55,145 nt of DNA from Rhodocyclaceae bacterium (GTDB taxonomy: Bacteria > Pseudomonadota > Gammaproteobacteria > Burkholderiales > Usitatibacteraceae): assembly GCA_020247395.1 (NCBI GenBank), contig JADCJC010000005.1:1-55145 (forward strand), read 5' to 3'. The translations under genes were made by a program, and so were the position numbers. This document shows, piece by piece, positions 24,728-49,183 of this stretch (position 1 is its first letter; every line of letters begins with the position of its first letter). The notes beneath the pieces were generated by a model. That model saw only the letters and a program-made list of their open reading frames with translations, had not been told where the DNA came from and ran no database searches.

Positions 24728-24763
24728 CGGTTGCCAAGTAGTCGCTGCGGCCGCGTTGGCCTC

Positions 24764-28405: not shown

Positions 28406-29445
28406 TTTGCGGTAGCCCTATGTTGAATGGCGGCGATGCCGCGCTCGATGGCCGCACGAAAACCTGCACGCGAAGGTTTGTCATTTGCCAGCACGTTCGG
28501 CGGATAGACGCTCATTTGATAGGTAGAGGCGAACGGTTCGAGCCGCAAACGTGCCAGATAGTTATCCATGCCAACACGCCCACGCACATGGCGAATGGTA
28601 GCAGGGTCAATCTGGGTGAGGGCGACCATCGATTCTCCATAGCCGGCTTCCGCCAAAATGCGGCCTTCATAATCGATCACCATCGAGCCGCTGTCGGTTG
28701 ACGCCATCGGGATGTCGATACTGGTGATTCCCGCGCTGTTGGCCGACACCACATAGGCCAGGTTCTCCACCGCGCGTGCCCGCTTGGCAATGCCTTTCTT
28801 GGTCGCTTGTGGGCTGCCAGTCTCGGAGGAGGAGTGTAAAAATATTTCGGCACCGCGTAGCGCCAATGCGCGCGCAACTTCGGGGAACAAAATTTCTTCA
28901 GAGGCGACGCAGGCGAGCTTGCCAATGGGGGTGTCCGCGACCGGGAAGGCGGCCTCCACACCATAGAGTTCAACAAACTTGTCCCAGACATCATGCGGTG
29001 TCGCCGTGTACATCGAAATCAGACGGCGGTAACGAAGAATTAACTCGCCTTGATCGTTGATGATAAAACTCACTTGAAACGACAGATCCGAAAACTTGGG
29101 GTCGATCTCGTAAACATTGCCCGAGAGATAGACGCTATTCCTCTTGGCGACTTCGCCCAAGGCTTTGTACTCGGGCCCGTCTTGCAGCAGGCACGCGCGG
29201 GCGGCCCACGTCGGCAAATCGGGTCCGGTTGGAAAACTTGTCAGAAAATACTCTGGCAACACCACCAGTTTCAAATCGTCGCCGGAAAACATTTTTGAGG
29301 CGGCGATCTGCCTGTCGATACGCTCGATGGATCGCATCATCTGTGCACGACACGCAGCGGCGTCGCTGATGCTGTTGACTGCGTCGCAACGTGTTTGTAG
29401 CGCCAGCGCGCGGTACGGTCCGTAGGGGTTGGGTCGGGGTGGCAT
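28402..29445 (-). CDS. nitrilase-superfamily carbon-nitrogen hydrolase
   Basis: Encodes 347 residues. The catalytic Glu is in LVVLPEYFLTSFP and the nucleophile Cys in IGKLACVASEEILFPEVARALA. The usual lysine segment reads LRYRRLISMYT, so the catalytic Lys position appears to hold Arg unless the alignment shifts. Family members hydrolyse amides, nitriles or N-carbamyl groups; this one may act on an amide of the unknown pathway substrate or be specialised. Its ATG shares one base with the upstream DUF1330 stop (TGATG), and its stop overlaps the dehydrogenase start, giving tight translational coupling. Confidence 0.85.
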   Translation of the reverse strand: MPPRPNPYGPYRALALQTRCDAVNSISDAAACRAQMMRSIERIDRQIAASKMFSGDDLKLVVLPEYFLTSFPTGPDLPTWAARACLLQDGPEYKALGEVAKRNSVYLSGNVYEIDPKFSDLSFQVSFIINDQGELILRYRRLISMYTATPHDVWDKFVELYGVEAAFPVADTPIGKLACVASEEILFPEVARALALRGAEIFLHSSSETGSPQATKKGIAKRARAVENLAYVVSANSAGITSIDIPMASTDSGSMVIDYEGRILAEAGYGESMVALTQIDPATIRHVRGRVGMDNYLARLRLEPFASTYQMSVYPPNVLANDKPSRAGFRAAIERGIAAIQHRATAK

Positions 29446-29774
29446 CAGTCGGCCTGTGAGGTTGTGTTGGGTTGAGATGTGGTGTTACCAAAACCATCAA
29501 GCAGAATTACCTGTGCGTCACAAATGCCTTCGCGCAGTTTGCGGATCTCGGCATATTCTGCCGAATGCCAGTAGGCGAGTGCGGCATCTTTGTCAGGCCA
29601 CTCAGAGATGACTCTTTTGCCCGCCGTCGGCTGCCCCTCCAGCACATCGCCTTCAGGGCCCAGCACCAGATATTTGCCACCCATGCGTGCAACCAGCGCC
29701 GCGTTTGCTGACCCGTAGGCGGCAAATCGCTTGGCGTCGTGAATGACTGCGGTGACAAGGATGTAGGCTGGCAT
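29445..29774 (-). CDS. DUF1330 domain-containing protein
   Basis: Encodes 109 residues from MPAYILVTAVIHDAKRFAAY at 29774; the frame continues upstream to 29915 with unrelated residues and into the crotonase region, so the shorter form is taken. It has the ferredoxin-like (dimeric alpha-beta barrel) layout of DUF1330, including GGKYLVLG and VISEWPDKDAALAYWHSAEY. Members often accompany catabolic genes but their activity is unknown. It lies 19 bp after the crotonase stop and overlaps the nitrilase start by one base. Confidence 0.85.
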   Translation of the reverse strand: MPAYILVTAVIHDAKRFAAYGSANAALVARMGGKYLVLGPEGDVLEGQPTAGKRVISEWPDKDAALAYWHSAEYAEIRKLREGICDAQVILLDGFGNTTSQPNTTSQAD

Positions 29775-29793
29775 GAGTGGGCCGAATCGATGA

Positions 29794-30570
29794 TCAGAAT
29801 TTGGGTATGCGTTTCTCAATAAAGGCGGCCGCACCTTCGGCGAAGTCAGTACCGCTGAAGGCGTCGGTGAATAGCTGTCTGGTCTCGGCGTCGTCATTCG
29901 TTTGTCCCGCTCCAATCTTTAAGAGGGATTGCTTGATCCCGCGTGCGCTATACGAGGACAGCGAGGTAATTCTAGACAGCATGGTTGCCAGGGCCGTTGG
30001 CAGCAACGCGGGCTCGATACATTCGGTGACCATGCCCCATGTCAAAGCAGTGGCCGCATCAACCTCCTTGGCGAGCAGCAAAATCTCACGGGCTCGCGCC
30101 GCACCGACCAACTCAACGACCCGCAGGCAGTCAACCAACCGATATGTCAGGCCGAGTTTCGATGGTGTGATGGCGAACTTGGCGTCGGGTGTGCACAACC
30201 TGAAGTCGGAAGCCGCAGCGAGTGCAGCACCGCCGCCATAACACGCGCCGCGGATGACGGCGATGGTTGGTTGTGGCAGTGCGGCGAAGGCATCAAGCGC
30301 GAGCGCAATGGTGGCTTGGTTATGCGCCATCCAAGTGCTGTCGCTGATGTGTTCTCGTAACTCGAAAATATCGGCACCAGCGCTGAAGTGCGCGCCATCG
30401 CCTTGCAGTACCACTGCGCGAATATCGCCGTTGGCCGCAATCGCTGCAGATGTCTCAGCCAGAGCGCGCCAGGCTGCGGTGTCCAGCGCATTGCGCTTTG
30501 TCGGCCGCGCGATGGTGACCGTTGCCACAGAATCGGCAATATTCAGCAGAAGGGAGGGGCCGTCGGTCAT
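29794..30570 (-). CDS. crotonase-superfamily protein (enoyl-CoA hydratase/isomerase-like)
   Basis: Encodes 258 residues from MTDGPSLLLNIADSVATVTI at 30570. The oxyanion-hole segment FSAGADIFELREH and CYGGGAALAAASDFRLCTPDAKFAI are typical of the crotonase fold. Both glutamates used by classical enoyl-CoA hydratases seem replaced: GGGAALA has Ala where Glu is usual, and the later PE.LG reads TPSKLGL. A reaction other than simple hydration (isomerase, lyase or hydrolase type) is therefore likely. First gene of the operon with DUF1330, nitrilase and aldehyde dehydrogenase, and divergent from the alpha/beta hydrolase gene across the operator at 30599. Confidence 0.87.
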   Translation of the reverse strand: MTDGPSLLLNIADSVATVTIARPTKRNALDTAAWRALAETSAAIAANGDIRAVVLQGDGAHFSAGADIFELREHISDSTWMAHNQATIALALDAFAALPQPTIAVIRGACYGGGAALAAASDFRLCTPDAKFAITPSKLGLTYRLVDCLRVVELVGAARAREILLLAKEVDAATALTWGMVTECIEPALLPTALATMLSRITSLSSYSARGIKQSLLKIGAGQTNDDAETRQLFTDAFSGTDFAEGAAAFIEKRIPKF

Positions 30571-30589
30571 ACCTGTTTGTTTTTCGAGG

Positions 30590-30618
30590 GTGACAAAGTT
30601 GTCCGGACAAATTATATT
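30590..30618 (+). promoter_or_regulatory. divergent promoter region with operator in the spacer
   Basis: Plus strand: GTGACA (30590-30595), a 17-bp spacer and TATATT (30613-30618), for the hydrolase gene at 30655. Minus strand: a perfect TATAAT at 30616-30611 for the crotonase operon, with no good -35. The TTGTCCGGACAA site (30599-30610) fills the plus-strand spacer and sits directly downstream of the minus-strand -10, so one bound protein could shut both. Confidence 0.65.
30599..30610. promoter_or_regulatory. operator site 1, TTGTCCGGACAA
   Basis: Perfect 12-bp palindrome, one of five identical copies in the window, all intergenic. It lies between the crotonase operon (-) and the alpha/beta hydrolase gene (+). 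Confidence 0.8.
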
Positions 30619-30654
30619 CGTGATCCATCTCCCGTGCTTTCCGGAGCAATCAAC

Positions 30655-31476
30655 ATGAAACGACTGTTTATCGAAACAAGCAAGGGGCAACTTCACGCGC
30701 GATTCCACGCGGGCGATTCCGCTTACGCCGCCTTGCCACCGTTGGTGATGTTGCATGCCGCACCGGGAAGCGCGCTGATGTTGGCCAACTTGCAGCTGCG
30801 CTTCAAGCAGCGAACGCTTGCCATTGACCTTCCCGGTATGGGCGACTCCGACTCGCTGCCGATGGCCGCAGACAACGCGGAGCCGACGATTGGCGACTTC
30901 ACGGGCATGATCGAGGAGGCAGTTTCAAAGACGTTTAAAGAGCCCATTGACGTCTACGGCACGTTGTCGGGGGTGCGGGTGGCGCTTGAGATCGCCAATC
31001 GGCAGTCCGTCCGCGTTAGGCGCGTGGTGTTGGACGGCATTGGCATCCCCAAACCTGAACAACTCGATGAACTACTTGCCGACTACGCCCCTGAGTTTGT
31101 GCCGGATATCAACGGTAACCACTTGATGAATACGTTCCAGCTTTGTCGTGACCAATATTTGTTCTACCCGTGGTACGCGCGTGATGCGGATCATCGACGT
31201 CCGACTGGATTGCCCAGTGCCACCGCATTACACACCAAGGTAATGGAAAGTTTGAAGTCTGCGGCGGCATTTCGGCCGCTGATTCGCGCGGCGTTTCGTT
31301 ACAATTGTGCCACCGCATTGGCGGCACTAAAGCAACCCGCACTCATCACGGCAGACGGATCTGCCGTGCGTGCCGACCTACCTGTTCTTGAGTTCCCGCC
31401 CGCTGAGCCACTCACCTGTCCGCCGGATTTGCTCGATAAACGTGCGGCGCGGATCTCGGCGTTTTTAGACAGTTAG
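30655..31476 (+). CDS. alpha/beta-hydrolase-like protein lacking a nucleophile Ser
   Basis: Encodes 273 residues, ATG at 30655 with GGAG eight bases upstream. The fold is shown by PPLVMLHAAPGSALML (oxyanion region), LAIDLPGMGDSD, and the elbow DVYGTLSGVRVALEIA. The elbow reads G-T-L-S-G, so the position of the usual G-x-S-x-G serine is Leu. The lid region QYLFYPW is shared with both halves of the fusion protein at 37164 (HLFFPW, ALFWPW), marking the three as relatives. Under operator site 1. Function not assignable; it may be a non-hydrolytic or unusual hydrolase. Its stop overlaps the convergent copper-oxygenase gene stop by four bases. Confidence 0.78.
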   Translation: MKRLFIETSKGQLHARFHAGDSAYAALPPLVMLHAAPGSALMLANLQLRFKQRTLAIDLPGMGDSDSLPMAADNAEPTIGDFTGMIEEAVSKTFKEPIDVYGTLSGVRVALEIANRQSVRVRRVVLDGIGIPKPEQLDELLADYAPEFVPDINGNHLMNTFQLCRDQYLFYPWYARDADHRRPTGLPSATALHTKVMESLKSAAAFRPLIRAAFRYNCATALAALKQPALITADGSAVRADLPVLEFPPAEPLTCPPDLLDKRAARISAFLDS

Positions 31477-33881
31477 TAGTAATAACCGAAGATGATGCCC
31501 ATCTCATCTTCACTCGTCAGGCCAAAGCTGACAGTACGATCAGTGGTGTTGTTGTAAGTGATTTCGGACATGAGGCCCTCGCCGGGTGCCAGTATGATCG
31601 GTTGGATGAACGTAATGATCGCCGGGTGCGCCCAATCGGTGTTTTCATAAACGATTTGGCCGTCGCGTGCGCCACCGGCAATACGAATCACGAACTTCTC
31701 ACCGAGCGCATGCATGTGCGAGGTCAACATCAATATTCGTGTGGTTGCCGAAAACGTAAACGTTTTCCGGTGCGTGGTGCGCTGGCCGGGCGCTAGTGGA
31801 ATAGTGGTATTGCTCAGATTGAGTGTGCGGGCCACTTGTGTGACCTGTGAGGCATCAACTGTGTGAAGATTGGCGAAGGCTTCGCCGGTAATGTTGCTGG
31901 CACCTTTGTTTACGTAGTGAGCGTTCAAGTCCAGTCGTGCATTCGCCGGTAATAGCAGTGCGATACCCGGCGGGAAGCTGTAGTCGCTCTCCGGCGTCAT
32001 GGCACCGGCAAAATAGGTGTGATACCCCATCGGTAAGGCGTTGACGAAATTCAGATTACCGTCCGGGTTGCGAATATCGCGCACCACATTTACCGGCGGG
32101 ATGATGGCGCTCGGTATGTTGCTCTGAAAAGTGTAGAGCTGGAAGTGATGACTGTTCGCACGCATACGTGTCTCGATGCGTGAGACGTAGATTGGTGCAG
32201 AATTTTCGATGTCACGCAAGACAAATAATTCGCGCTCAAAGTTGGGCTGGACGGAAAACGGCTCAATAGTAAGTTGATAGCCTTTCGTGGGCGGTGGCAG
32301 TGGGACAAACGGCGCGTATGCTGGCAGAGTGCGGTCATCTAGTAGTTTTGCATCGATGTTGTCGCCGGATTCCGGTGCCCCCGCTTCAATCCACCGTTTG
32401 ATGAACTCGAGTTGCCCGACAGTGAGCGAGGTCGATCCAAGCGGCATCGGGCTGCCAAAGTGTTGTGGCTTGGTGGGGTCCCACAGCAGTAGTTTTTGGT
32501 ACAACAAGCTGTTCTCCAGATTACGTGGAGCCACTTGTTTCATGCCGTGCATCACCGCCATGCTGTTTTTTACCGAGGCGTTGCGCAGATTGCGGTAGGC
32601 AACCGCCTCGTCGAGCACTAGGCCGGACTGTATCGCAAAGGCATTGCCCGCTGTGTGACAGCTGTTACAGTTCGGCGCGAACACCTTCTGCTGCATGCGT
32701 GCAAAACTGGATGGTGCGGGGGCAACCGGTGCGGTCACGCCGTGGAACACACCAAAGTTGTTTGCGACCGACGGTGCCGTTCCGGCATTACTGATCAAGG
32801 TCGGGATGGCAATATTGCGGTTCATTTGCCAAAGGCTCAGAATCCCGTCAGGGCGTAGCCAAACCACGTCAAACACCCCGTCGCCGTTGTAGTCGCCAGT
32901 GGCATAGAGTTGCCAAGTCGCATCCGTCGTTGGCAGGGTGGTGGTCGCGCTTGGCAGGGTCGTGGTGGTGGTAGTACAAGAGGCGTTTACATCGTCCGGG
33001 TTGCCGGTGAACGGCGGTAGCGTGATGCCCGCAGCACTCAGTGAGATGAGCGCGGTCTGCCCGGTGGACGGGTTACGCATCAAGATGTCACCGCGACCAT
33101 TGCCGCTGAAGTCGGCGAAGGCCTGTGCAGCAAACCCGGCGGGAATGCTGCCTGCCGAGTAGTTGGCGCATGTTCTGCCCGGCGTTGCCATCAACACACG
33201 GATCGAGTTGTCGGGGCTGACATACACCATATCCGCCATGCCGTCGCCATTCAAGTCAGCTGCGCCAAGCAGCTTCCATGACAGAGGCGCACCGCCGCGC
33301 TTGCGAACCGTGGGTGGGCCACTGGCGTTGGTAAACCAAATGTAGGAAACACCGGTATCTCCCGGTCGAGCGGGGTCAAACCCGAGATATCGCCACACCA
33401 AATCGCCGCGACCATCTCCGTCTAAATCGCCGACCGCCTGTACATCCCAAGTCTGTTTGACCGGGCGAATGAATGCGGCGTTAGCGCTTTCAAAGTTCAA
33501 CCAGCTGGTGACGTCTCCCGACTCGCCCTGTGCCATATCCTGAAACAGCAAGTCGGATTTACCATTGCCATCGAGATCCGTTACGCCCACCAAACGGAAA
33601 TTGCTGCCAGGATCCACCAACGCTGAAAATTGGAATTGGCCATTCACCAATCGGCCTGCGATCAATTGCGGGGTGCCTGCAACCGAGTTAGAACGTGCCA
33701 ACAACACACTTTTGTTGCTGCCATCGATATCGATTCCGCCACGCTTTGACAGCGGCACACCAACATTCGCGTGCAGCAGAAGAGGAACCGCCAGTGCGCC
33801 GACCAAGAGAATTGCCCGTGCGGCACGATGTGCGGCGGATGACAGATAGGGTTTAGTGAGAAATGAATGCTGTTGAAACAT
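31473..33881 (-). CDS. secreted FG-GAP / cytochrome c / PHM-like copper monooxygenase fusion
   Basis: Encodes 802 residues from MFQQHSFLTKPYLSS at 33881 (AGG upstream; the frame extends to 33953). A signal peptide (to about residue 38) precedes five FG-GAP/VCBS-like calcium motifs (DLDGNGKSD, DLDGDGRGD, DLNGDGMAD, DFSGNGRGD, DYNGDGVFD), a Thr/Pro linker, and one c-type heme motif CNSCH near residue 405. The C-terminal part resembles type II copper ascorbate-dependent monooxygenases: SHHFQLY (about 577), NAHY (about 655), SHMHALG (about 722) and DEMGIIFGYYY (about 795) would supply the two copper sites. An extracytoplasmic oxygenase is inferred. No operator copy lies upstream. Confidence 0.8.
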   Translation of the reverse strand: MFQQHSFLTKPYLSSAAHRAARAILLVGALAVPLLLHANVGVPLSKRGGIDIDGSNKSVLLARSNSVAGTPQLIAGRLVNGQFQFSALVDPGSNFRLVGVTDLDGNGKSDLLFQDMAQGESGDVTSWLNFESANAAFIRPVKQTWDVQAVGDLDGDGRGDLVWRYLGFDPARPGDTGVSYIWFTNASGPPTVRKRGGAPLSWKLLGAADLNGDGMADMVYVSPDNSIRVLMATPGRTCANYSAGSIPAGFAAQAFADFSGNGRGDILMRNPSTGQTALISLSAAGITLPPFTGNPDDVNASCTTTTTTLPSATTTLPTTDATWQLYATGDYNGDGVFDVVWLRPDGILSLWQMNRNIAIPTLISNAGTAPSVANNFGVFHGVTAPVAPAPSSFARMQQKVFAPNCNSCHTAGNAFAIQSGLVLDEAVAYRNLRNASVKNSMAVMHGMKQVAPRNLENSLLYQKLLLWDPTKPQHFGSPMPLGSTSLTVGQLEFIKRWIEAGAPESGDNIDAKLLDDRTLPAYAPFVPLPPPTKGYQLTIEPFSVQPNFERELFVLRDIENSAPIYVSRIETRMRANSHHFQLYTFQSNIPSAIIPPVNVVRDIRNPDGNLNFVNALPMGYHTYFAGAMTPESDYSFPPGIALLLPANARLDLNAHYVNKGASNITGEAFANLHTVDASQVTQVARTLNLSNTTIPLAPGQRTTHRKTFTFSATTRILMLTSHMHALGEKFVIRIAGGARDGQIVYENTDWAHPAIITFIQPIILAPGEGLMSEITYNNTTDRTVSFGLTSEDEMGIIFGYYY

Positions 33882-33960
33882 AGGTGCCTGATCGACCGTT
33901 GATACAAGGTTATCTGAAATGCCGCTTGCACTCAATTCTGGCCAAAAAAACAAGCGCTCA

Positions 33961-33996
33961 AAGAAAAACGCCGTGCTGGCTTAGGCCAGCACGGCG
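33961..33996 (-). terminator. terminator of the TonB receptor gene
   Basis: Perfect 12-bp stem, CGCCGTGCTGGC (33969-33980) and GCCAGCACGGCG (33985-33996), loop TTAG. On the minus strand it is followed by TTTTTCTTT, so it ends transcription from the receptor gene before the copper-oxygenase gene. Confidence 0.9.
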
Positions 33997-34071
33997 AGTC
34001 CACTCTTCGTACTAGGTGGTCCGTGGCAGGTATTAGAAGGCGCCTAGTTATTTGGGTGTACGCAAGTTAGA

Positions 34072-36255
34072 TTATTTGAAGCGATAACGCAAATCGACAC
34101 CATAGGTCCGCGGCACGTTCAGATACGCGTCGGCCATACCGATACCGGCGATATCGAATGCGCCGGTGTAGTAGATCTTGTTACCCAGATTTTTGCCCCA
34201 CAGCGCCACTGACCACTTGCCGCCTTTAACATCATAGCCGACACGCGCATCGACCAATGAATAGGCTTGTGTCTTAATGAGTTCGGACACTGCAAGGTTC
34301 TGGTAGTGGTCGCCAACGCGTTTCATACCGGCATTCAGGTTGATTGTGCCGTTGGCGGTTTTGATGCGGTAGTTGGTGCCGAGCCCCCACTGTTGCTTCG
34401 GCGCTTGCTTGAGTGCTTTGCCGGCAAACGTGGCGGCGTTGGCCGCACTGAAGTCTTGATACTTGCTATCGAGTGTTCCCAAGTGTCCGCTGATTTGCCA
34501 GTCCGGCGTAATCTGCGCCACCGTCTCCAGTTCGACACCCTTAATCAGGGCGCTTGCCGCATTGGTCAGGTTCGACACGCCGTTGGCGTCAAAGGCCGTC
34601 AGTTGCAAGTCCTTGTAGTCATTGCGGAAGTAGTTGATGTTGAATCGAACTTTGCCGTCGGCCAAGGTGGTCTTGAAGCCGATTTCGTAGGACTTGACGG
34701 TTTCCGGCTTCAGCGTGGTGAATTGCGCGACGGTACCTGCGCGACCATTAAAGCCACCGCTCTTGAAGCCGGTGGATGCCGATGCATATGCGAGGATTTC
34801 TTTGCTCAGCTGCGCGTCTAGTCCTAGCTTCCAGTCGGTATTGGTCCAAGTGTTTGACTTTGCAACTCGGAATGCTTCGGTACCGTTGGTACGAATCGAT
34901 ATGATCGAAAAATCTTTTGATTCACGGCTTGAGCGCATACCCGCCGTCAGTTTGAAAACAGGGCTCAAACGATAATCCGCCTGGCCGTAAAGGGCAGAGG
35001 CCTTGACGGTTTGTGCCAGCAGATTGGTGGCACCCGGTGCAAAAATATCCTGTCGGGTCGGCTGGTCGTTCTGCTCTTTGAAGGCAAACAAACCGGCTGT
35101 CCAAGACAGTGCGCCTTTGCCGGTTGAAATCAGTTGCGATTCAAGACTATTCTGGCTCTGCCGCTGATCCTGGAACAAATGGAAGCGGGTCTGCGCCGTC
35201 CCATCGAGATCGATTGCCAGCGCGTTGTCCATCTTGCGATAGGCATAAATATTGCGCCACTCGACCGATTCAAAATCAGTCGACGTCACCACCGAAAAAC
35301 CGTTTTGGTCGAGGTCGTTGCGACCCGCACCCGGTGGCAAGTTAGTTTCGATGGTTAACAGGTTGCCGTCGGCGTTATTGATGGGCCGATTGAAACGTGC
35401 GGCTGCTGCAGCGTCGATGACGCTACTTGCGTACTGGGGGCCGCTACGCTGTCTCAAGATATCTCCCGCCACGGTCACCCGCGTGCTGCCCATGTTGAAA
35501 CCGATGCTTCCGCGGGCACCGTAGATCTGTTCGTCATTCACCATGCCGCCGTTGGTGATGTCTTTGAGGTATCCGTCACGCGCTTTGGACATCACGCCGA
35601 AAGTGGCATCGACCCCTTCCGACAGCTTGGTGCTAACCGATGCACGCACATCCAATCGATGGAAGTTGCCAACGCGGCCCTCGACGTCGAACTTCTCAGC
35701 GCCGGTGGGCTTCGCTGTTACGTACCGAATTGCACCGCCCGGCGCGTTGCGACCGTACAGCGTGCCCTGCGGCCCCCGCAGAACTTCGATGCGGGTGACA
35801 TCAAACATATCAAGCAGCGCACCCGTCATGCGCGGCATATATACGTCGTCGATGTAAATGGCGACCGACGGGTCGGCGGAGAACAACGATTCGTCGGTAC
35901 CAACACCGCGCATAAAGATCTTTGCCGCCGATGAGGTACCGGTGGCGGGTTCCACCACGATGTTGGGGACTTCAAACTTCATGTCGTCCAGACGGCGAAT
36001 CTGCTTTTGCTCCAAGTCTTTGGCCGACAGGGTCGTAATCGCAACTGGAACCTTTTGCAACTCCTCCTCGCGCCGCTGCGCGGTCACGACGATGTTTTCG
36101 AGTTTGTCGTCCGCTTTCGCCTCTGCCTTGGCGGCGGCGCTTTGTGCCGTTGCGGAGTCGATCACCAGCGCGGAAACCGCCAGTGCGACTGCAACGTGCA
36201 TCACGCTAAATTTGCCAAGGCTGGTTTGGCCTGGTTGATTCAATGATTGGTTCAT
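34072..36255 (-). CDS. TonB-dependent outer membrane receptor
   Basis: Encodes 727 residues. A signal peptide (VALAVSALVIDSATAQ) precedes a TonB-box-like region ENIVVTAQRREEELQKVPVA, a plug domain (FMRGVGTDESLFSADPSVA, RIEVLRGPQGTLYGRNAPGG) and a 22-strand barrel ending in GVDLRYRFK with terminal aromatic-rich residues. Energised uptake of a specific molecule across the outer membrane; the sequence type is common for hydrophobic or aromatic compounds, but the ligand is unknown. Expression is predicted from the minus-strand promoter at 36454-36482 with operator site 3, so uptake is co-regulated with the catabolic operons. Confidence 0.93.
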   Translation of the reverse strand: MNQSLNQPGQTSLGKFSVMHVAVALAVSALVIDSATAQSAAAKAEAKADDKLENIVVTAQRREEELQKVPVAITTLSAKDLEQKQIRRLDDMKFEVPNIVVEPATGTSSAAKIFMRGVGTDESLFSADPSVAIYIDDVYMPRMTGALLDMFDVTRIEVLRGPQGTLYGRNAPGGAIRYVTAKPTGAEKFDVEGRVGNFHRLDVRASVSTKLSEGVDATFGVMSKARDGYLKDITNGGMVNDEQIYGARGSIGFNMGSTRVTVAGDILRQRSGPQYASSVIDAAAAARFNRPINNADGNLLTIETNLPPGAGRNDLDQNGFSVVTSTDFESVEWRNIYAYRKMDNALAIDLDGTAQTRFHLFQDQRQSQNSLESQLISTGKGALSWTAGLFAFKEQNDQPTRQDIFAPGATNLLAQTVKASALYGQADYRLSPVFKLTAGMRSSRESKDFSIISIRTNGTEAFRVAKSNTWTNTDWKLGLDAQLSKEILAYASASTGFKSGGFNGRAGTVAQFTTLKPETVKSYEIGFKTTLADGKVRFNINYFRNDYKDLQLTAFDANGVSNLTNAASALIKGVELETVAQITPDWQISGHLGTLDSKYQDFSAANAATFAGKALKQAPKQQWGLGTNYRIKTANGTINLNAGMKRVGDHYQNLAVSELIKTQAYSLVDARVGYDVKGGKWSVALWGKNLGNKIYYTGAFDIAGIGMADAYLNVPRTYGVDLRYRFK

Positions 36256-36398
36256 GAGGAACTCCGGTTGTCTAGTTTGTGAGTTGTGGCTTGTGGTTGG
36301 TGTCTTGTGTAGAGGCTAGGGCTGTAGCGTGACCAAGTCAGGTGAACAAAGTCAGATGTCGCCACGATATCGTTCCGGGGGCGGTACTGAAACTTCAC

Positions 36399-36427
36399 TT
36401 GTTTTTTGTTGCAGGACAGACTAAATT
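36399..36427 (+). promoter_or_regulatory. predicted promoter for the lipocalin-like gene
   Basis: TTGTTT (36399-36404), 17-bp spacer, TAAATT (36422-36427), followed immediately by operator site 2. It would start transcription about 170 bp before the ATG at 36603. The 36256-36602 gap holds only this divergent promoter pair and the two operators. Confidence 0.55.
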
Positions 36428-36463
36428 TGTCCGGACAAATAGTTGTCCGGACAAATTTAGTCT
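36418..36463. promoter_or_regulatory. operator sites 2 and 3 in a 46-bp perfect palindrome
   Basis: Two TTGTCCGGACAA copies at 36427-36438 and 36443-36454, 16 bp centre to centre. Flanking bases mirror as well: 21-base arms (36418-36438 and 36443-36463) pair without mismatch around a 4-base ATAG spacer. Each arm holds an outward-facing TAAATT -10, so the palindrome is a pair of divergent operator-promoter units. Confidence 0.85.
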
Positions 36464-36482
36464 CATCGACTTACGCTGTCAA
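36454..36482 (-). promoter_or_regulatory. predicted promoter for the TonB receptor
   Basis: On the minus strand a perfect TTGACA (36482-36477), 17-bp spacer and TAAATT (36459-36454). Operator site 3 begins at the end of the -10 and covers the start point, a classic repression layout. The receptor leader would be about 190 nt. Confidence 0.7.
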
Positions 36483-36602
36483 GACAATGACGTGAAACAG
36501 CCGGGAACCCTCGCAACTCGTTGGATTTCTACAACGCTACTGCGCAAAACGTAAAAGTGGCTGTAATCCGTCTTGAAACTGTTGACTAAAACAGGGTACG
36601 TA

Positions 36603-37052
36603 ATGAATTTAATCAAACAGTCCATGCCGTTTTTGCTCAGGCATAACGGCGTCTGGGAAGGCACCTACCACCTGGTAGATTCGCAGGGCAAAACGCTTGA
36701 CCGGCATCACTCCCGCATTGAAGTGCGATTTCCGGAAACAGGCCCGCACCAATACTCCCAGAAGAATCATTTTTGGTGGGATGATGGACGCGAGACGCGC
36801 GGCGAATATCCGGGGGTGTGCCGCGGTGGTGTGTTGTATTGGGATAACGAATTGATTCGCGGCAAGGCCTGGTCGGTGGATGAGTTATCCACCGTGCTGA
36901 CATGGCAGCGCCACGATACACCGGATACATATTTGTACGAACTCATTGTTATCAACCAAACCAACCAGCAGCGCAGCCGCACTTGGCATTGGTTTCGTAA
37001 CGGGGTGATCCATCAGCGTACGCTGATTGAAGAAACTAAGATTTCGGATTGA
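36603..37052 (+). CDS. small lipocalin-like protein (DUF3598-like)
   Basis: Encodes 149 residues from the ATG at 36603 (AGGG upstream; a TTG at 36573 is the alternative). The pattern LLRHNGVWEGTYHLVDSQGK, then alternating short strands rich in Trp and Tyr (HFWWDDGRETRGEY, TWHWFRNGVIHQRTLIEE), suggests a calycin/lipocalin-type beta barrel and recalls DUF3598, an assignment I am not sure of. No signal peptide. It may bind a hydrophobic pathway intermediate. It lies between the receptor promoter and the fusion-hydrolase operon, under operator site 2. Confidence 0.6.
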   Translation: MNLIKQSMPFLLRHNGVWEGTYHLVDSQGKTLDRHHSRIEVRFPETGPHQYSQKNHFWWDDGRETRGEYPGVCRGGVLYWDNELIRGKAWSVDELSTVLTWQRHDTPDTYLYELIVINQTNQQRSRTWHWFRNGVIHQRTLIEETKISD

Positions 37053-37065
37053 CCAACGCTGGCGA

Positions 37066-37094
37066 TTGTGCGATCTGAGCTTTGCCGCTAGAAT
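37066..37094 (+). promoter_or_regulatory. predicted promoter of the fusion-hydrolase operon
   Basis: TTGTGC (37066-37071), 17-bp spacer, TAGAAT (37089-37094). Operator site 4 begins five bases after the -10 and covers the expected start point. The ATG follows at 37164. Confidence 0.55.
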
Positions 37095-37099
37095 ACAAG

Positions 37100-37111
37100 T
37101 TGTCCGGACAA
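37100..37111. promoter_or_regulatory. operator site 4, TTGTCCGGACAA
   Basis: Identical to the other four sites, positioned over the predicted transcription start of the hydrolase-oxidase-VOC operon. Confidence 0.8.
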
Positions 37112-37163
37112 ATTACGTAACGCGGTTTGTTCCTTCCGGGCGCTGCAACCGGACTCGTCGCGC

Positions 37164-38870
37164 ATGTCGATATCTACCCCCGCTGTTTCCACGCACCCGA
37201 TATCAGCCCAGTTTGTCGATGTTGCCGGGCGGCGGGTGTTGCTGCGATTTGCCGGAAGTGGGCCCGCAGTGTTGTTGCTGCACCAGTCACCGCAAAATTC
37301 GCGTGCGTTGATTACTTGGATTGAGCGCCTGTCGGCGCACTATTCGGTGTTCGCGCCAGATACGCCGGGCTTTGGCTACTCCGATCCATTGCCGCTCGCT
37401 CAGCCGACCATCCCGGACTATGCCGCCGCCCTGAATGGGTTGCTGGATGCGCTTGGTATCGAGAGAGTCATCGTAAACGGCGTTCATACCGGCGCGGTGA
37501 CCGCGCTACGATTTGCCCTCGACTTTCCGGCGCGTGTGGCGGGATTGATCTGTGATGGCTACGCGCGATTCAACGCCGAAGAACGTCAGCTCCTGCTGAA
37601 TGGTTATCTGCCGCCGTTCGAGCCGCAATGGGACGGCAGCCACCTATTGTGGTTGTGGGCGCGCCTGCGCGAGCAGCACCTGTTTTTCCCGTGGAATACC
37701 GCGACCAAGACCGCGCGTATGGCCTATCCGGCACCGTCAACAGAGCGGCTCAGCGGTGATGTACTCGACATCTTGGACGCCGGGGACGGTTATCGTGCCG
37801 GCTACCGCGCGCCTTTCTTGTACGACGACGCGACGGCCGCATCGAGGCTGACGGTTGAGACGCGCATCTTCTACCGGGCCGAGGATGTGCTCGCCACGCA
37901 TTTGCCGCGTCTACAAGGATTGCCGACAAACGTGGCGGCTGAAATTGTCAACGGCGGGCCAGCGGCGCTGATCGAACGCACTGATGCATTTATCGCCTCC
38001 CACGCCGCTAATGCAAGCCGCCTTGATGCGGGTGCTGCGGTGTTGGGTGCGGTTTCAACTCGGCGGCGAGTGTATGGCACGACTCATGGGTCGATGTGCA
38101 CGCTGATCGCCGCGAATGGAGGCGATCTTGCGAATTCGTTGGTTGTGGTGCATCTGAACGAGATTGGCACCCCGGCCAGGATTCCGGTTGAGGTACCACA
38201 CGGGACACCGGTGATTGCGCCAGAGTTACCTGGGCACGGCGCGTCGCAAGCTTGGTCGGCGGCTAACCTCACGCTGGGCGCGGTCGCACAGTCAGTATTG
38301 CAGATTTTGCAGGCGCTCGGTGTGAGGCGTTACTGCGTGAGCAGCGAGGGCGCGGCCGGCGCAATTGCAGCCGCGCTGGTACGGGTGTCAGTCGAAAATA
38401 ATGCCGGGCCGCGGTGCGAGCAACTGCGACTGCACAATCCGATGCTGCTCAACGAGGCGGAGCGTGCGCAGTTTGTTTCACAGTTGCCAGACCTGACGCC
38501 TAACGCGACTGGCGCGCATCTGCTCGCCGCGTGGAACTGGGCACGGATGAAGGCGCTGTTCTGGCCATGGCAGCAGCCCACCGTCGCCGCCGTGCGCAGG
38601 GTGGATGCGCCGGCACCCGTGCGCCTGCATGCCGAAGTGGTGGAAATTCTCCGCGTCGGCGCTTTGTTCGCGCCACTTTGGCGGGCGGCATTGGCCGATC
38701 AGGTTTACTCGGCGCTGGCCGAATACGATGGTCGCATCACGATCCAATGTGACGATGAGCCGGAGCGGGTGCGTATCGTCGATGCATTGGCAAACACACT
38801 CGGCCTTGTTGAGGCGACATTGTCGGCAAGCGAGCAGTCAACCGGAGTCAAAACATGGCGGAAACTCTAA
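37164..38870 (+). CDS. tandem alpha/beta-hydrolase fusion without nucleophile Ser
   Basis: Encodes 568 residues in two homologous halves. The first (about 15-285) shows VLLLHQSPQNSRALI, FAPDTPGFGYSD and the elbow VNGVHTGAVTAL, where His replaces the nucleophile Ser; I recall G-x-HTG elbows in an uncharacterised hydrolase group. The second (about 300-565) is a diverged copy with VVVHLNEIGTPARI, IAPELPGHGAS and CVSSEGAAGAIAA, again with no G-x-S-x-G. Lid motifs HLFFPW and ALFWPW match QYLFYPW of the protein at 30655. No signal peptide. No clear Shine-Dalgarno precedes the ATG. The stop overlaps the oxidase start by 16 bp. Confidence 0.78.
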   Translation: MSISTPAVSTHPISAQFVDVAGRRVLLRFAGSGPAVLLLHQSPQNSRALITWIERLSAHYSVFAPDTPGFGYSDPLPLAQPTIPDYAAALNGLLDALGIERVIVNGVHTGAVTALRFALDFPARVAGLICDGYARFNAEERQLLLNGYLPPFEPQWDGSHLLWLWARLREQHLFFPWNTATKTARMAYPAPSTERLSGDVLDILDAGDGYRAGYRAPFLYDDATAASRLTVETRIFYRAEDVLATHLPRLQGLPTNVAAEIVNGGPAALIERTDAFIASHAANASRLDAGAAVLGAVSTRRRVYGTTHGSMCTLIAANGGDLANSLVVVHLNEIGTPARIPVEVPHGTPVIAPELPGHGASQAWSAANLTLGAVAQSVLQILQALGVRRYCVSSEGAAGAIAAALVRVSVENNAGPRCEQLRLHNPMLLNEAERAQFVSQLPDLTPNATGAHLLAAWNWARMKALFWPWQQPTVAAVRRVDAPAPVRLHAEVVEILRVGALFAPLWRAALADQVYSALAEYDGRITIQCDDEPERVRIVDALANTLGLVEATLSASEQSTGVKTWRKL

Positions 38871-40450
38871 ACGAATACGCGACACAGGCTAGCAGGCCTG
38901 CGGCCAGACCAGCGTGGTTCACGGCACTACAGGTAGCGCTCGGTGCCGGGGCGGTGGCGGCCGACGAAGCAACGCTCGATTTCTACGCACAAGATGTTTT
39001 CAGCCGAGGCGAGGCCCTTTCGGCGGTGGTGTCACCGGGTACCGTGGATGAGTTGCAGATCGCGGTGAAGACACTCGCTGCGGTAGACGTGGCGATGGTG
39101 CCGCGTGGCGGTGGGCTGAGTTATACCGATGGTTACCTGGCGAGGCGCAAGGGCTCGGCGTTGATTGATTTGACGCGCATGGACAAATTGGTCGAGCTCA
39201 ACACCGTTGATCGTTATGTCACCGTCGAGACCGGTATGTATTGGGCGACGCTAAACGATTTGCTAAAACCGCATGGCTTGCGTACCCCGTATTGGGGTCC
39301 GTTATCGGGGTTGCGTTCAACCATTGGCGGTGCGCTGTCGCAGTGCAGCGTGTTTTTAGGTTCTGGTGAACATGGCAGTGTTGGCGATAGTGTGTTGTCG
39401 CTTGATGTGGTGTTGGCCGACGGTTCTGTTCTGACCACGGGTAGCGCGGCGGCCGGCGCTGGTACCAAGCCGTTCATTCGTTATTTCGGTCCGGACATGA
39501 CCGGTCTGTTTGTTGGGGATGCAGGCGCACTTGGTATCAAGGCGAGGGCGACCCTCAAACTGATTCCGCGCGAGGTTGAAATCGATTTTGTCTCGGCGGT
39601 GTTTGATGATCCGACGGCAATGATCGAAGCGATGTCCGAAATTTCGCGTAATGATATTGCCGCCGAGTGTTTTTCCTTTGATCCAATTTTGTTGGAGCAA
39701 CGTAAGAAGCGCATGAGTCTGCTGGCCGACGCGAAAACATTGCTCAACGTCGTCAAACAGTCGGGCGTGATGGCCGGCATGGGGCTGGTGAAGTCGGGGC
39801 GCGACTTTGTTGGCGAGGGCAAATACTCGGCACACGTTGCCATCGAAGGCAAAACCCCCGGTGAGGTGGCTCAGAAAGTAGAGACAGCGAAAAAGATTTT
39901 TGCTGTGAAGGGGCAGGCGACCGAGAACTCATTTCCCAAGGCACTGCGTGCGCTGCCGTTTGTTGCGCCAAATTCAATGCTTGGTCCAGCAGGTGAGCGC
40001 TGGGTGCCCGTACATGCGATCTTTCCGCACAGTACTGCGCAACATGCATTTGCCGAGATACAGGCTTTTTTTGCCAGCAAGCAGGCGATACTCGACGCAC
40101 ATCAGATTCGTATTGGTTATCTGTGTACGACGGTTGCACAGCAAGGCTACTTAATCGAGCCGGTTTTCTATTGGAACGACTCTCACACGGCCTACCACAA
40201 ACGTGTGGTGGAAGCCGAGTACCTGAAGGTGTGTGGTGAGCCTGCGGCAAACCCAAGTGCTACGGCGGCAGTAGGCGCATTAAAGGCCGAAACTGCGCGC
40301 CTGATGAGGGCTTTGGGGGGCACCCACTTTCAGATTGGCAAGTTTTATACCTATCGCGACGGCCGCAATGCGGCTGCGCTAGCGCTGTTTGATGCCATCA
40401 AGCAACAGCTTGACCCCAAAAACGTCATGAATCCAGGAGTGTTGACATGA
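38855..40450 (+). CDS. FAD-linked oxidase (VAO/PCMH family)
   Basis: Encodes 531 residues. The PCMH-type FAD-binding domain is shown by AVVSPGTVDELQIAV, VPRGGGLSYTDGYL, YVTVETGMYWATLNDLLKPH, GLRSTIGGALSQ and VGDAGALGIKARATLKL; the C-terminal oxidase domain ends with the family hallmark LDPKNVMNPGVL. Relatives include D-lactate dehydrogenase, vanillyl-alcohol oxidase and 4-cresol dehydrogenase, so oxidation of a hydroxyl or benzylic carbon is plausible; the substrate is unknown. It overlaps the fusion hydrolase by 16 bp and the next gene by 4 bp (ATGA). Confidence 0.88.
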   Translation: MAETLNEYATQASRPAARPAWFTALQVALGAGAVAADEATLDFYAQDVFSRGEALSAVVSPGTVDELQIAVKTLAAVDVAMVPRGGGLSYTDGYLARRKGSALIDLTRMDKLVELNTVDRYVTVETGMYWATLNDLLKPHGLRTPYWGPLSGLRSTIGGALSQCSVFLGSGEHGSVGDSVLSLDVVLADGSVLTTGSAAAGAGTKPFIRYFGPDMTGLFVGDAGALGIKARATLKLIPREVEIDFVSAVFDDPTAMIEAMSEISRNDIAAECFSFDPILLEQRKKRMSLLADAKTLLNVVKQSGVMAGMGLVKSGRDFVGEGKYSAHVAIEGKTPGEVAQKVETAKKIFAVKGQATENSFPKALRALPFVAPNSMLGPAGERWVPVHAIFPHSTAQHAFAEIQAFFASKQAILDAHQIRIGYLCTTVAQQGYLIEPVFYWNDSHTAYHKRVVEAEYLKVCGEPAANPSATAAVGALKAETARLMRALGGTHFQIGKFYTYRDGRNAAALALFDAIKQQLDPKNVMNPGVLT

Positions 40451-41328
40451 ATGCACCCAGGCTCTTGCACGGCACCGTGTGTGTGCCGTCGCTCGACAAT
40501 GCGTTAAGCCTCTATCGCGATCTCTTTGAGCAGGCGGTGGTGCACACCGCGAGTGTTGGCAAATCGGAAGCGGCGGCGTGGCAAGCCCCGGCGCTGGCGG
40601 GTGCTAGGAGTGTGGTCATGCAGCCGCCGAGCGGTTCGCCGGTCTATCTGCGGCTCATCGAGCAGGCCGATCCGGCGGGATATCAACCGGGGACACATTT
40701 CGGCTGGGCCGCGCTGGAGTTGTCCGTGAGAGATGCTGACGCGATGTACGCTCGATTAATCGCCGCGGGGACGCCAATCATCGCTGCACCGAAAGCGTTG
40801 TCGTTTACCGATATGTTGTATCCGATGCAAGCGCGCGGGCCGGGCGGCGAAGCCATTTACTTGAATGAAGTTCGTGGTGATCTGCCCTCAAGCGACCTGC
40901 CGATGGCCAAGTGCTGGGTTGACCGGTTGTTTATCGCAGTGATGGGCTGCCGAGATATGAAAGCCTCGCTTGAGTTTTATCACGCTCTGCTTGGAACAAC
41001 CACCGGCGGTGAATGGGAGATGCCCTACAGCGTGATCAATATCGCATTTGGTTTGGATGCCTCCACCGCACACAAACTCGCAACCATTTCCGACCGGCGC
41101 ACGGTGCTGTTCGAGGTCGATCAATACCCCGTCAAGGCCACGCCGAGGCCTGAGGCAAGTGGCGGTCTGCCACAGGGGGTCGCGATCATCGGCGTGAAGG
41201 TTGATGCCTTGCCCACTGGTGCAAGCTGGGTTGTTCCGCCCTCAGTGCGCACGGAGCCGCCGTACTTCGGCGCGACGGTGGGTGTGGTGCACGGACCAGA
41301 TGGCGAGTTGACCGAATTGGTCTGTTGA
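40447..41328 (+). CDS. VOC superfamily protein with two glyoxalase-like domains
   Basis: Encodes 293 residues. Two beta-alpha-beta-beta-beta halves can be read, starting at LLHGTVCVPSLDNALSLYRD and at DRLFIAVMGCRDMKASLEFYH; each ends in a possible metal-ligand Glu (GGEAIYLNEV and DGELTELV). The fold hosts glyoxalases, extradiol dioxygenases and epimerases; this one is not assignable further. Starts within the oxidase stop (ATGA), so the three genes form a coupled operon. A weak hairpin at 41331-41350 follows the stop. Confidence 0.8.
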   Translation: MNAPRLLHGTVCVPSLDNALSLYRDLFEQAVVHTASVGKSEAAAWQAPALAGARSVVMQPPSGSPVYLRLIEQADPAGYQPGTHFGWAALELSVRDADAMYARLIAAGTPIIAAPKALSFTDMLYPMQARGPGGEAIYLNEVRGDLPSSDLPMAKCWVDRLFIAVMGCRDMKASLEFYHALLGTTTGGEWEMPYSVINIAFGLDASTAHKLATISDRRTVLFEVDQYPVKATPRPEASGGLPQGVAIIGVKVDALPTGASWVVPPSVRTEPPYFGATVGVVHGPDGELTELVC

Positions 41329-41362
41329 GCGCTGTCGTTTAGGCGACGGCAATTTGCTCCGT

Positions 41363-41391
41363 TTGACGGCGATGAATTGTGCGCTTAAAAT
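41363..41391 (+). promoter_or_regulatory. predicted promoter of the HapK-SDR-CoA operon
   Basis: TTGACG (41363-41368), 17-bp spacer, TAAAAT (41386-41391): the best-looking promoter in the catabolic region. Operator site 5 abuts the -10. Confidence 0.75.
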
Positions 41392-41403
41392 TTGTCCGGA
41401 CAA
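41392..41403. promoter_or_regulatory. operator site 5, TTGTCCGGACAA
   Basis: Identical to the other four copies, starting at the base after the -10 and spanning the transcription start for the gene at 41431. Confidence 0.82.
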
Positions 41404-41430
41404 CTTTGCAAGCTCAACTTGGAGATCGTT

Positions 41431-41739
41431 ATGGCAACCATCCTCGTCCTGTTCAATTTGAAACCCGGAACTGATGTCGCAGCTTATGAGGCGTGGGCAA
41501 AGTCCAGCGACATTCCGCTCGTCCGCACTCTAGGCTCCGTGTCCGGCTTCGAAGTCCTGAGGACCAAAATGCTGTTGGGGTCCGATGCCAAGCCGCCGTA
41601 CCAGTATGCGGAAGTGATCACAGTCCCCGATTTGGACGCGTTCTTCAAGGACGTGGGAACCGATGCGGTACAAGCGGGTGCAAAGCAGTTTCAAGGTTTT
41701 GCCGACAGCCCGATGTTTATCGTTTGCGACAACTTGTAG
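41431..41739 (+). CDS. REDY/HapK-like small protein
   Basis: Encodes 102 residues, ATG at 41431 with GGAG six bases upstream. MATILVLFNLKPGTDVAAYEAW and the later YAEVITVPDLDAFFKDVGTD with FQGFADSPMFIV match my memory of the REDY/HapK family (dimeric ferredoxin-like fold; HapK comes from prodigiosin-type gene clusters). Enzymatic role unknown. First gene behind operator site 5; 183 bp separate it from the SDR gene without an obvious terminator. Confidence 0.75.
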   Translation: MATILVLFNLKPGTDVAAYEAWAKSSDIPLVRTLGSVSGFEVLRTKMLLGSDAKPPYQYAEVITVPDLDAFFKDVGTDAVQAGAKQFQGFADSPMFIVCDNL

Positions 41740-41922
41740 GCGAAGTCTTGCTGCGATCAACCGCGCTGGGTTGGCGATAGACTCGAATTGCTCATGTATG
41801 AGGCTATACATTCCGCTGTTCTCATCAGTTTCCTCCGCGCCTTGCCATCGCTCGCGACGGACTTTATTCGTTCCCTTACTGCCCAACAACTCCCGATAGA
41901 GATATAGGATAACCAAAGAGAA

Positions 41923-42795
41923 ATGGCTCAATACACTGAACTCAAAGGTAAGGTCGCTCTCGTCACGGGCGCAGGCCGCCGCAAGGGGCTTGGTGAAGCG
42001 ATTGCCCGCCGGCTAGCGACTGAAGGCTGCAAAGTGGTGGTAACCGACATCGGTCATGCCAAGGGCGAACAAATGCCGGAGGCTGCCGTCGGCATACTGT
42101 CTGAGATGGAGCAGGTGGCCGCAGACATTCACGCTGCAGCGGCAGCCTCCGGTAATGGCGGCGCGTGTACTGCGCTGGCGCTTGACGTGCTCGAAGAGTC
42201 GCAAGTTAAAGCAGCGATTGAGACAACGGTGGCGCGCTACGCCGGCCTCGACATTTTGGTGAACAACGCCGGTATCGGTTATTTGATGAAGCCGATTGTG
42301 GAAATGTCCATTGAAGAGTGGGACGCCGTGCTTGGCGTTAACCTGCGCGGCGCGTTCCTGTGTACTAAATATGCCGCGACCCAGATGATCAAGCAAAACG
42401 AAAGCGGCAGGGCGGGTGGCCGCATCGTCAACATCGCCTCGCAAGCGGCGAAGTCGGGCTTTCCATTTGCCTCCGCCTACTGCTCATCCAAACACGGCAT
42501 GACCGGACTCACACGTGTGACGGCGATCGAAATGGGCAAGTATGGCATCACCGCCAATGCGATCTGCCCGAACCATGTCACCACGGGGTTGGGTGCTTGG
42601 CAGAACGAATATTTTTCTGAGGCGCTTGGTCTGACCATGGAGCAGTACATGAATGCCATGAAGTCGCGCATTCCGTTGGGACGTCCGGGATTACCGACGG
42701 ACACGGCGGCGGCGTGTGCGTGGTTATGCAGCGATGAGGCGCGATATGTGACCGGAGAATCTCTAAACGTCTCGGGCGGTGAGGAGTATCACTAG
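41923..42795 (+). CDS. SDR-family NAD(P)-dependent oxidoreductase
   Basis: Encodes 290 residues. Classical short-chain dehydrogenase motifs: ALVTGAGRRKGLGEAIARR (cofactor), ILVNNAGIG, catalytic Ser in RIVNIASQAAKSG, and YCSSKHGMTGL with Tyr and Lys. The insert after the second strand (GHAKGEQMPEAAVGILSEME) is longer than usual. Probably oxidises or reduces a hydroxyl or ketone of a pathway intermediate. AGAG precedes the ATG. Confidence 0.92.
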   Translation: MAQYTELKGKVALVTGAGRRKGLGEAIARRLATEGCKVVVTDIGHAKGEQMPEAAVGILSEMEQVAADIHAAAAASGNGGACTALALDVLEESQVKAAIETTVARYAGLDILVNNAGIGYLMKPIVEMSIEEWDAVLGVNLRGAFLCTKYAATQMIKQNESGRAGGRIVNIASQAAKSGFPFASAYCSSKHGMTGLTRVTAIEMGKYGITANAICPNHVTTGLGAWQNEYFSEALGLTMEQYMNAMKSRIPLGRPGLPTDTAAACAWLCSDEARYVTGESLNVSGGEEYH

Positions 42796-42948
42796 TGGTG
42801 CCGCCGCAAACCTGCCGCGCACGCCGGGGTGGCGGTTGCGGTGCTCGGTGCACAACGCAGACTCGTCCGCGCCTAGCCGCCAGCTGAGCGCGCCCGTAGC
42901 AGTTTTCGACTGACACAATTCGCGATAGCGACTACAGAAACCAAACAA

Positions 42949-43848: not shown

Positions 43849-43850
43849 TT

Positions 43851-44720: not shown

Positions 44721-44737
44721 AAAAAAACGGGGAAGTT

Positions 44738-45256: not shown

Positions 45257-45284
45257 TTTTTTTGCTTTGCCAAAGTTGAATAGC

Positions 45285-45324
45285 GGCGGGCACTTTCAAG
45301 CATTCTTGCCCGAAAAAGCGCACC
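45285..45324. repeat. degenerate copy of the 40-bp palindromic repeat
   Basis: Starts GGCGGGCACTTTCAAGC, very close to the copy at 26914; the right arm is decayed (9 of 15 bases pair). It lies in the 99-bp gap between the MaoC and acyl-CoA dehydrogenase genes. Confidence 0.6.
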
Positions 45325-45355
45325 AATGCTTGTGTTTGAAGTTTGAGATAACGCC

Positions 45356-46528: not shown

Positions 46529-46531
46529 CAA

Positions 46532-46628: not shown

Positions 46629-46663
46629 AGTTTTGAATCCTGGGCCAAGCGATCGGCTGGGCG

Positions 46664-49156: not shown

Positions 49157-49183
49157 CGAGGATTTGTTGACAAAGGAATTTCC

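Follow-up and report, generated by a model that had tools for sequence, protein, structure and literature searches.

The question raised by this locus is which protein, if any, reads a short palindrome that recurs between its genes, and what the genes marked in this way do together. The palindrome, TTGTCCGGACAA (12 bp), is found at 30599, 36427, 36443, 37100 and 41392 in the 55,145-nucleotide stretch of a Rhodocyclaceae bacterium that was analyzed (contig JADCJC010000005.1; hereafter the window). With a probability of roughly 90%, judged from sequence comparison, these copies belong to a set of twelve operators in the genome that bind one GntR-family regulator of the HutC subfamily, encoded on another contig. 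A first-pass annotation of the same DNA had reported the five identical copies, had placed them only between genes and had considered a 12-mer to be expected far less than once per 55 kb. All five were recovered, and base composition predicts 0.003 exact copies in the window and 0.21 in the genome; the five exact copies are therefore not attributable to chance. The looser count is only mildly unusual: at up to two mismatches two further window copies appear (17761 and 21712, both with two mismatches), and the total of seven was reached in 2 of 100 shuffles. The intergenic placement holds provided that conserved gene starts are used; the longest open reading frames (ORFs) of the crotonase and HapK genes overrun two of the sites, and their likely starts, 30573 and 41431, lie past these sites.

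Scanning the whole genome (3,897,550 bases, 133 contigs), as the first-pass annotation had proposed, returned ten exact copies of the palindrome and none of its reversed control. All ten lie ahead of genes, with starts judged by eye and several of the longest ORFs overrunning the site, and scatter through coding or unrelated regions was not seen. The flanks of the palindrome are conserved as well, giving a full operator of 18 bp, AA[G/T]TTGTCCGGACAA[A/C]TT, of which the 12-mer is the core. This was derived from 45 exact copies in fetched loci of seven genus members (44 plus a coding copy in genome G016): with sites oriented G-first where possible, A is two before the core in 43 of 45 and the base before the core is G in 36 and T in 9, and the three bases past the core are A in 40, T in 43 and T in 40. 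The degenerate 18-mer has nine exact and three one-mismatch matches in the genome; two mismatches add a single match and three mismatches eight more, against three at three mismatches for the reversed 18-mer control; as the counts drop across a gap to chance level, the genome is taken to hold twelve operators. The nine exact 18-mers include both regulator-promoter sites, whose core is ATGTCCGGACAA. The regulon proposed in the first-pass annotation is thus real, but the 12-mer by which it was defined is only the core of the operator, and the regulon has more members than were listed.

Eight other one-mismatch copies of the 12-mer in the genome (C44, C50, C56, C61, C66:33343, C90, C97 and C106) were dropped for unfit flanks; those on C50, C56, C61, C90 and C97 are within predicted genes, those at C66:33343 and on C106 are outside called genes, and the C44 copy, at the 5' end of an ORF that encodes a guanylate-cyclase domain, may still be an operator. 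Short identical copies could also be produced by a repeat element, a methylation site or another non-regulatory repeat; with all ten exact copies ahead of genes, conserved flanks and co-inheritance with one regulator, the chance of this is close to nil. Among the full texts searched, the 12-mer was found only in an unrelated Drosophila paper.

The candidate reader of the operators is a 240-residue GntR protein (gene at C66:20082-20801 of the genome, G000, which is L016:6080-6802, minus strand on L016). It has an N-terminal GntR winged helix (PF00392, 68.5 bits; cut-off 27) and a C-terminal UTRA domain (PF07702, 52.1 bits; cut-off 23.8), the latter being the mark of the HutC subfamily and hence the basis of the assignment. 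Two sites, each with one mismatch to the 12-mer, lie between its gene and a divergent MmgE/PrpD operon that encodes two PrpD proteins, a PaaK-like protein, an amidase and a major facilitator superfamily (MFS) transporter. Six places in the genome carry a GntR domain (one under the Pfam cut-off), and the regulator alone has the site nearby. The resemblance of the GT-N4-AC spacing to GntR/HutC sites had been pointed out beforehand, together with the advice to look for a regulator gene with the site in its own promoter; a HutC-subfamily gene of that description is what was found, outside the window. It had also been stated that the window encodes no DNA-binding regulator for the motif, which stands in so far as none there is linked to it, with the qualification that a LuxR-type response regulator is encoded at 24035-24727. 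This gene is followed by one for a 7TM-DISM histidine kinase (24035-26701 for the pair), and no tie of either to the motif is seen.

The regulator is neither HutC nor PhnF, as it scores under the curated NCBIfam cut-offs for both (87.6 of 220 bits and 92.6 of 156.8 bits, respectively). Its best relatives in the PDB are 2ra5 (a putative regulator), DasR and YvoA/NagR; the last two share the arrangement of a GntR winged helix with a UTRA-type partner, but the likeness amounts to only about 50 bits. NagR and DasR are catabolic repressors with operators at promoters. NagR differs in the bases of its dre sites, and amino-sugar phosphates serve as its effectors.

PMC4494728 gives a spacing of 4 nt between GT and AC for most sites of HutC proteins, and states that position 39 of the helix-turn-helix (HTH) covaries with the central operator bases, being mostly Met with an A/T leaning that is not significant. 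HutC itself (the histidine utilization repressor) and PhnF share both the subfamily and the GT-N4-AC palindrome with the system described here, and their regulator genes often lie in divergons (PMC4494728). TTGTCCGGACAA follows the spacing rule of that paper, and a site within the regulator divergon, common and not required in the subfamily, is present in all six orthologues of the regulator. The strict consensus GTMTAKAC is not matched, the centre of GTCCGGAC being CG and not the TA of the subfamily; this is compatible with the subfamily, as PMC4494728 names exceptions and a centre that covaries with HTH position 39. All six orthologues have the identical helix SRHTAREAL. By eye, position 39 is His in these six, Tyr in homologues from family f13 (SRYTVREAL) and His in genome G262, and the operator centre is CG in each case; upstream of the HutC-type paralogues of G018 and G017 (L038, L044), which have the Met helix SRMTVNR, lies TTGTCTAGACAA, with a TA centre.

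Conservation was followed in a family sample of 28 genomes, six of which contain regulator orthologues (53-100% identity); in each of the six the divergent promoter carries one site (G015, G017) or two. The same search returned 14 loci of weaker homologues, and none has TGTCCGGACA within about 1.5 kb. The FAD oxidase of the window is found at E 1e-60 in the same six genomes and no other, and three or more 18-mer sites (up to one mismatch) are likewise confined to these six, with counts of 12, 10, 12, 9, 6 and 3; elsewhere in the family there is one such site in G018, and the reversed control gives one in G011. The exact 12-mer occurs in seven of the 28 genomes, the six and G016, whose lone copy was rejected as an operator, being inside a gene that reads by eye as dihydroorotate dehydrogenase and having GC-rich flanks. 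With the twin and the regulator pair each counted once, the twelve operators make ten positions, all of which G013 keeps before the orthologous gene. The closed genome of Betaproteobacteria bacterium UKL13-2 (G010, CP012157), whose regulator orthologue is 85-86% identical, keeps nine of the ten, some with one mismatch, and at the tenth has the site with no alcohol dehydrogenase match. The diverged G015 and G017 keep the operators of the regulator, hydrolase-B and HapK operons, and in G014, with its short contigs, the HapK position is out of view. A comparison of promoters across homologous clusters had been suggested at the outset; the sites are kept before orthologous operons, and the absence of conservation that would speak against a regulon is not what is observed.

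In the order as a whole the exact 12-mer is present in 59 of 399 genomes, mostly as a single copy. Outside the family, 59 places were fetched from 53 of 55 genomes, with 4 kb on each side or less at contig ends. Family f13 has one exact copy in each of 11 sampled genomes, and in ten of these a HutC homologue (32-41% identity) follows, its extrapolated start 102-119 bp downstream of the copy; the divergon includes a crotonase-like gene in nine of the ten and a CaiB-like gene in seven, the remaining stretches being cut or ending early. These loci (L103-L106, L108-L113), with a HutC homologue, mostly a crotonase-CaiB divergon and the same operator, constitute a predicted second, smaller regulon of this clade. 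In G262 (family f11), a MaoC-acyl-CoA dehydrogenase-CaiB-GntR operon (L137:272-4015), with enzymes 55-63% identical to those of the window, has a copy about 47 bp upstream, and this counts as a second independent event. In G181, TctC and LeuCD-like genes lie close to the copy, and the longer stretch fetched there shows a GntR homologue at a distance of 4.4 kb.

The placement of the operators relative to promoters, which were scored with a weight matrix built for the purpose and ranked among 2000 random placements in the window, bears on the mode of action. Operator 1 (AAGTTGTCCGGACAAATT, 30596..30613) has its core within the 17-bp spacer of the plus-strand hydrolase-A promoter (GTGACA-17-TATATT, 30590..30618), and the crotonase operon diverges from it. 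Operators 2 (AATTTGTCCGGACAAATA, 36424..36441) and 3 (TAGTTGTCCGGACAAATT, 36440..36457) are the left and right halves of a twin, which by eye reads as an inverted repeat whose perfect arms of 21 bases (36418-36438 and 36443-36463) have 4 bases between them. The former overlaps the -10 of the weaker promoter of a DUF3598-like gene (TTGTTT-17-TAAATT, 97th percentile, at the 36427 site), and the 36443 site overlaps the -10 of the minus-strand TonB-receptor promoter (TTGACA-17-TAAATT, 36454..36482). By eye these two promoters face each other from outside, therefore both transcripts would cross both operators. Operator 4 (AAGTTGTCCGGACAAATT, 37097..37114) is where transcription of the hydrolase-B operon presumably starts, the 37100 site beginning five bases past the -10 of TTGTGC-17-TAGAAT (37066..37094, plus), and operator 5 (AATTTGTCCGGACAACTT, 41389..41406) has its core directly behind the -10 of the HapK operon promoter (TTGACG-17-TAAAAT, 41363..41391, plus), which the 41392 site abuts. 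Apart from that of the DUF3598-like gene, these promoters score above the 99th percentile, as does that of a second TonB receptor, TonB2, where the operator is again behind the -10. As a class, promoter-like matches are not enriched in 28000-42000 (7 found, 7.5 expected); all three 10-of-12 matches in this interval sit at operators.

As the clearest operators fill the spacer, overlap the -10 end or follow the -10, repression is likely, and it would be relieved by a pathway metabolite, the release step and the metabolite being drawn by analogy from the HutC subfamily (NagR). A regulator dimer would bind the palindrome and block RNA polymerase at the promoter; binding of the metabolite to the UTRA domain would then release the regulator and turn on the whole gene set together. 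In G000, the sites of the electron transfer flavoprotein (ETF)-quinone oxidoreductase gene and of the C102 acyl-CoA dehydrogenase gene lie upstream of the best promoter match, as would suit a HutC-type protein that activates, or that activates at some sites and represses at others. Such a mode is improbable, as at the clearest promoters the operator lies over the spacer, the end of the -10 or the presumed start, and the HutC proteins with solved structures, NagR and DasR, are termed repressors in the literature.

Several observations weigh against a single HutC-type repressor acting at all of these sites. At 30599 no good promoter was found in the crotonase direction (84th percentile), and only weak promoters (86th-97th percentile) were seen for the genes of the alcohol dehydrogenase and of the LeuC-like, DUF1838, PrpD and GntR proteins; the earlier claim that each copy abuts or fills a credible sigma-70 promoter holds for 30599 on the hydrolase-A side, 36443, 37100 and 41392, and less well for 36427 and the crotonase direction. 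G017 has only its three 18-mer sites, and distant homologues with an SRHT helix (L035, L036, L037, L091 and L095) have no copy within 400 bases upstream. Single copies outside look like chance, given that the reversed control is found in about 38 of the 399 genomes (author's count), and of the 48 exact copies outside f1 and f13, that of G262 is the only one with a HutC homologue within the 4 kb fetched on each side. The six-of-six match represents one or few events, as the genus genomes are related, and f13 counts as one independent event, as its genomes form one genus. Lastly, G018 has AATTTGTCCGGACATATT before an ETF-quinone oxidoreductase gene (L152:4040), and no regulator orthologue was found in it (best match 27%). 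This site, and the fact that a regulator gene can itself be the target of a different regulator, would be accommodated if another transcription factor bound the 12-mer and the HutC-type gene were merely one target; that is very unlikely, as the site precedes the HutC-type gene in every orthologue and, independently, distant HutC homologues in nearly all f13 genomes and a GntR operon in G262, with a spacing that fits HutC sites.

Under the HutC-type regulator, the regulated genes of the window begin with a minus-strand operon (26972..30573) for a crotonase (ECH), a DUF1330 protein, a nitrilase-type C-N hydrolase and an aldehyde dehydrogenase, followed by alpha/beta hydrolase A (30655..31476, plus), the TonB-dependent receptor (34072..36255, minus) and the DUF3598-like protein (36573..37052, plus), which is under the Pfam cut-off and has a paralogue beside the regulator that passes it. 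The hydrolase B-FAD_binding_4 oxidase-VOC protein operon occupies 37164..41328 (plus); no relative of its VOC protein (40447-41328) was found in the PDB at E 0.01, and the alpha/beta hydrolases show weak likeness to meta-cleavage hydrolases. The genes at 41431..49792 (plus) are inferred to form one operon, encoding HapK, a short-chain dehydrogenase/reductase (SDR), a PuuE/imidase-like protein of carbohydrate esterase family 4 (CE4), a CitE/RipC-like lyase, MaoC, an acyl-CoA dehydrogenase, two CaiB-type CoA transferases and a VOC protein. Elsewhere in the genome, sites lie ahead of a medium-chain dehydrogenase/reductase (MDR) alcohol dehydrogenase with an alpha/beta hydrolase (C47), a DUF1838 gene (C58), the second TonB receptor (C66) and the ETF-quinone oxidoreductase (C126), and between LeuCD-like and acyl-CoA dehydrogenase operons (C102). 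By inference, the regulon would comprise about 14 transcription units on six contigs, the window included. FG-GAP repeat proteins adjoin regulated operons in the window (31473-33953) and at L020:1382-5859; one has a Cu2_monoox_C match at the cut-off, and one has DUF1800 and adjoins a DUF1501 gene.

Several of the encoded enzymes have instructive relatives. Of the three CE4 proteins, the two that were searched against the PDB both match PuuE and 3qbu; HxnM and the imidase of P. putida YZ-26 are also related to 3qbu and PuuE, according to PMC9304392. These cyclic imide hydrolases thus have relatives in common with the two CE4 proteins, which are candidates for such an activity; the allantoinase PuuE equivalog cut-off is missed (217.5 of 424.6 bits). 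The isochorismatase-fold protein has as its best relatives N-carbamoylsarcosine amidohydrolase and 4l07/4l08 (maleamate amidase). The LeuC-like protein resembles isopropylmalate/citramalate isomerase, the PrpD-like protein resembles IDS epimerase and cis-aconitate decarboxylase, and the CitE-like protein resembles RipC and malyl-CoA lyases, being RipC-like only, as it scores under the equivalog cut-off for this itaconate pathway enzyme (193.8 of 375 bits).

The same gene set is seen in sphingomonad plasmid clusters, namely those of Sphingomonas sp. JE1 (pJE1, L088) and Novosphingobium sp. THN1 (pTHN, L090), with identities to the proteins here of 52% for the methyltransferase, 54-55% for SDR, 42-43% for HapK and 41-43% for the FAD oxidase; the THN1 isochorismatase-fold amidase is 66% identical. 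JE1 also carries a UTRA GntR gene in its cluster, with 38% identity to the regulator here across 96 residues, and the ten intergenic stretches examined there contain no GT-N4-AC near-palindrome and no 9-mer common to three of them; no GntR match was found in the 41.5 kb fetched from THN1. Unlike the regulon here, the fetched JE1 stretch has hydantoinase A/B genes and no CE4 or LeuCD match. No function for the THN1 and JE1 clusters was found in the literature searched, and PMC6167471 gave no match for GntR, HapK or isochorismatase. Titles and abstract starts on the motif, pJE1, tomato-root Sphingobium, HapK clusters, tetrapyrrole maleimides and imidase/maleamate gave no description of the regulon or pathway. 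On a plasmid of Variovorax sp. SRS16 (L089:14938-19212), an FAD oxidase 39% identical to that of the window adjoins LeuCD-like and isocitrate lyase/PEP mutase-type genes.

Taken as a set, the regulated genes suggest uptake, CoA activation, C-N hydrolysis, hydration and C-C cleavage, and the scattered genes appear to form one pathway that degrades a complex, possibly ring-shaped, nitrogen-containing compound. Uptake would be served by the two TonB receptors and the MFS transporter, activation by the PaaK-like ligase and the CoA transferases, and C-N hydrolysis by the amidase, the nitrilase, the isochorismatase-fold amidase and the PuuE-like CE4 enzymes; hydration would follow by the LeuCD-like enzyme and MaoC, and C-C cleavage by the CitE/RipC-like lyase, with electrons disposed of through the acyl-CoA dehydrogenases and ETF-quinone oxidoreductase. 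The odds are about even that an intermediate of the degradation is a cyclic imide or lactam. There is a one-in-two chance that cyclic imides play no part and that the regulon is of an ordinary catabolic kind, for aromatic, terpenoid or fatty-acid-like compounds, in which the amidases are incidental: crotonase, acyl-CoA dehydrogenases, VOC proteins and meta-cleavage-like alpha/beta hydrolases are common in such pathways and PuuE-likeness does not fix the substrate, whereas the co-regulation of PuuE-like CE4 enzymes, an N-carbamoylsarcosine-amidohydrolase-like protein, an amidase and a LeuCD-like hydratase, and the hydantoinase genes in a related sphingomonad cluster, speak for a cyclic intermediate.

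A dedicated tetrapyrrole-breakdown pathway (chlorophyll or phycobilin) under the HutC-type regulator is an unlikely but specific form of the proposal. The TonB receptors would import pyrrolic fragments, the CE4 enzymes would open dialkylmaleimides, the isochorismatase-fold amidase would remove ammonia and the LeuCD-like enzyme would hydrate the dialkylmaleate, whose product the CoA transferase, MaoC and CitE-like enzymes would cut to central metabolites. Relatives are found in company with bloom cyanobacteria: UKL13-2 came from an Aphanizomenon co-culture, according to PMC5248499, and THN1, with its similar gene cluster, is from Lake Taihu. Microcystin (mlr) degradation was considered on account of THN1 and set aside, no mlr name being recognized among the regulated genes, with no homologue search made.

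The kind of regulation is thus a known one, HutC-type, and the pathway that it governs is uncharacterized. From an anonymous palindrome a defined pair of regulator and operator has emerged that would govern about 14 transcription units on six contigs, joining genes otherwise unlinked: two TonB systems, ETF-quinone oxidoreductase, the LeuCD-like hydratase, DUF1838, the DUF3598-like protein and HapK. The CG operator centre, where the usual HutC consensus has TA, offers a natural specificity swap for study. The set is a ready gene list for one catabolic pathway, at least one host of which lives beside bloom cyanobacteria, and the compound that releases the repressor would be a single handle on the substrate of the pathway.

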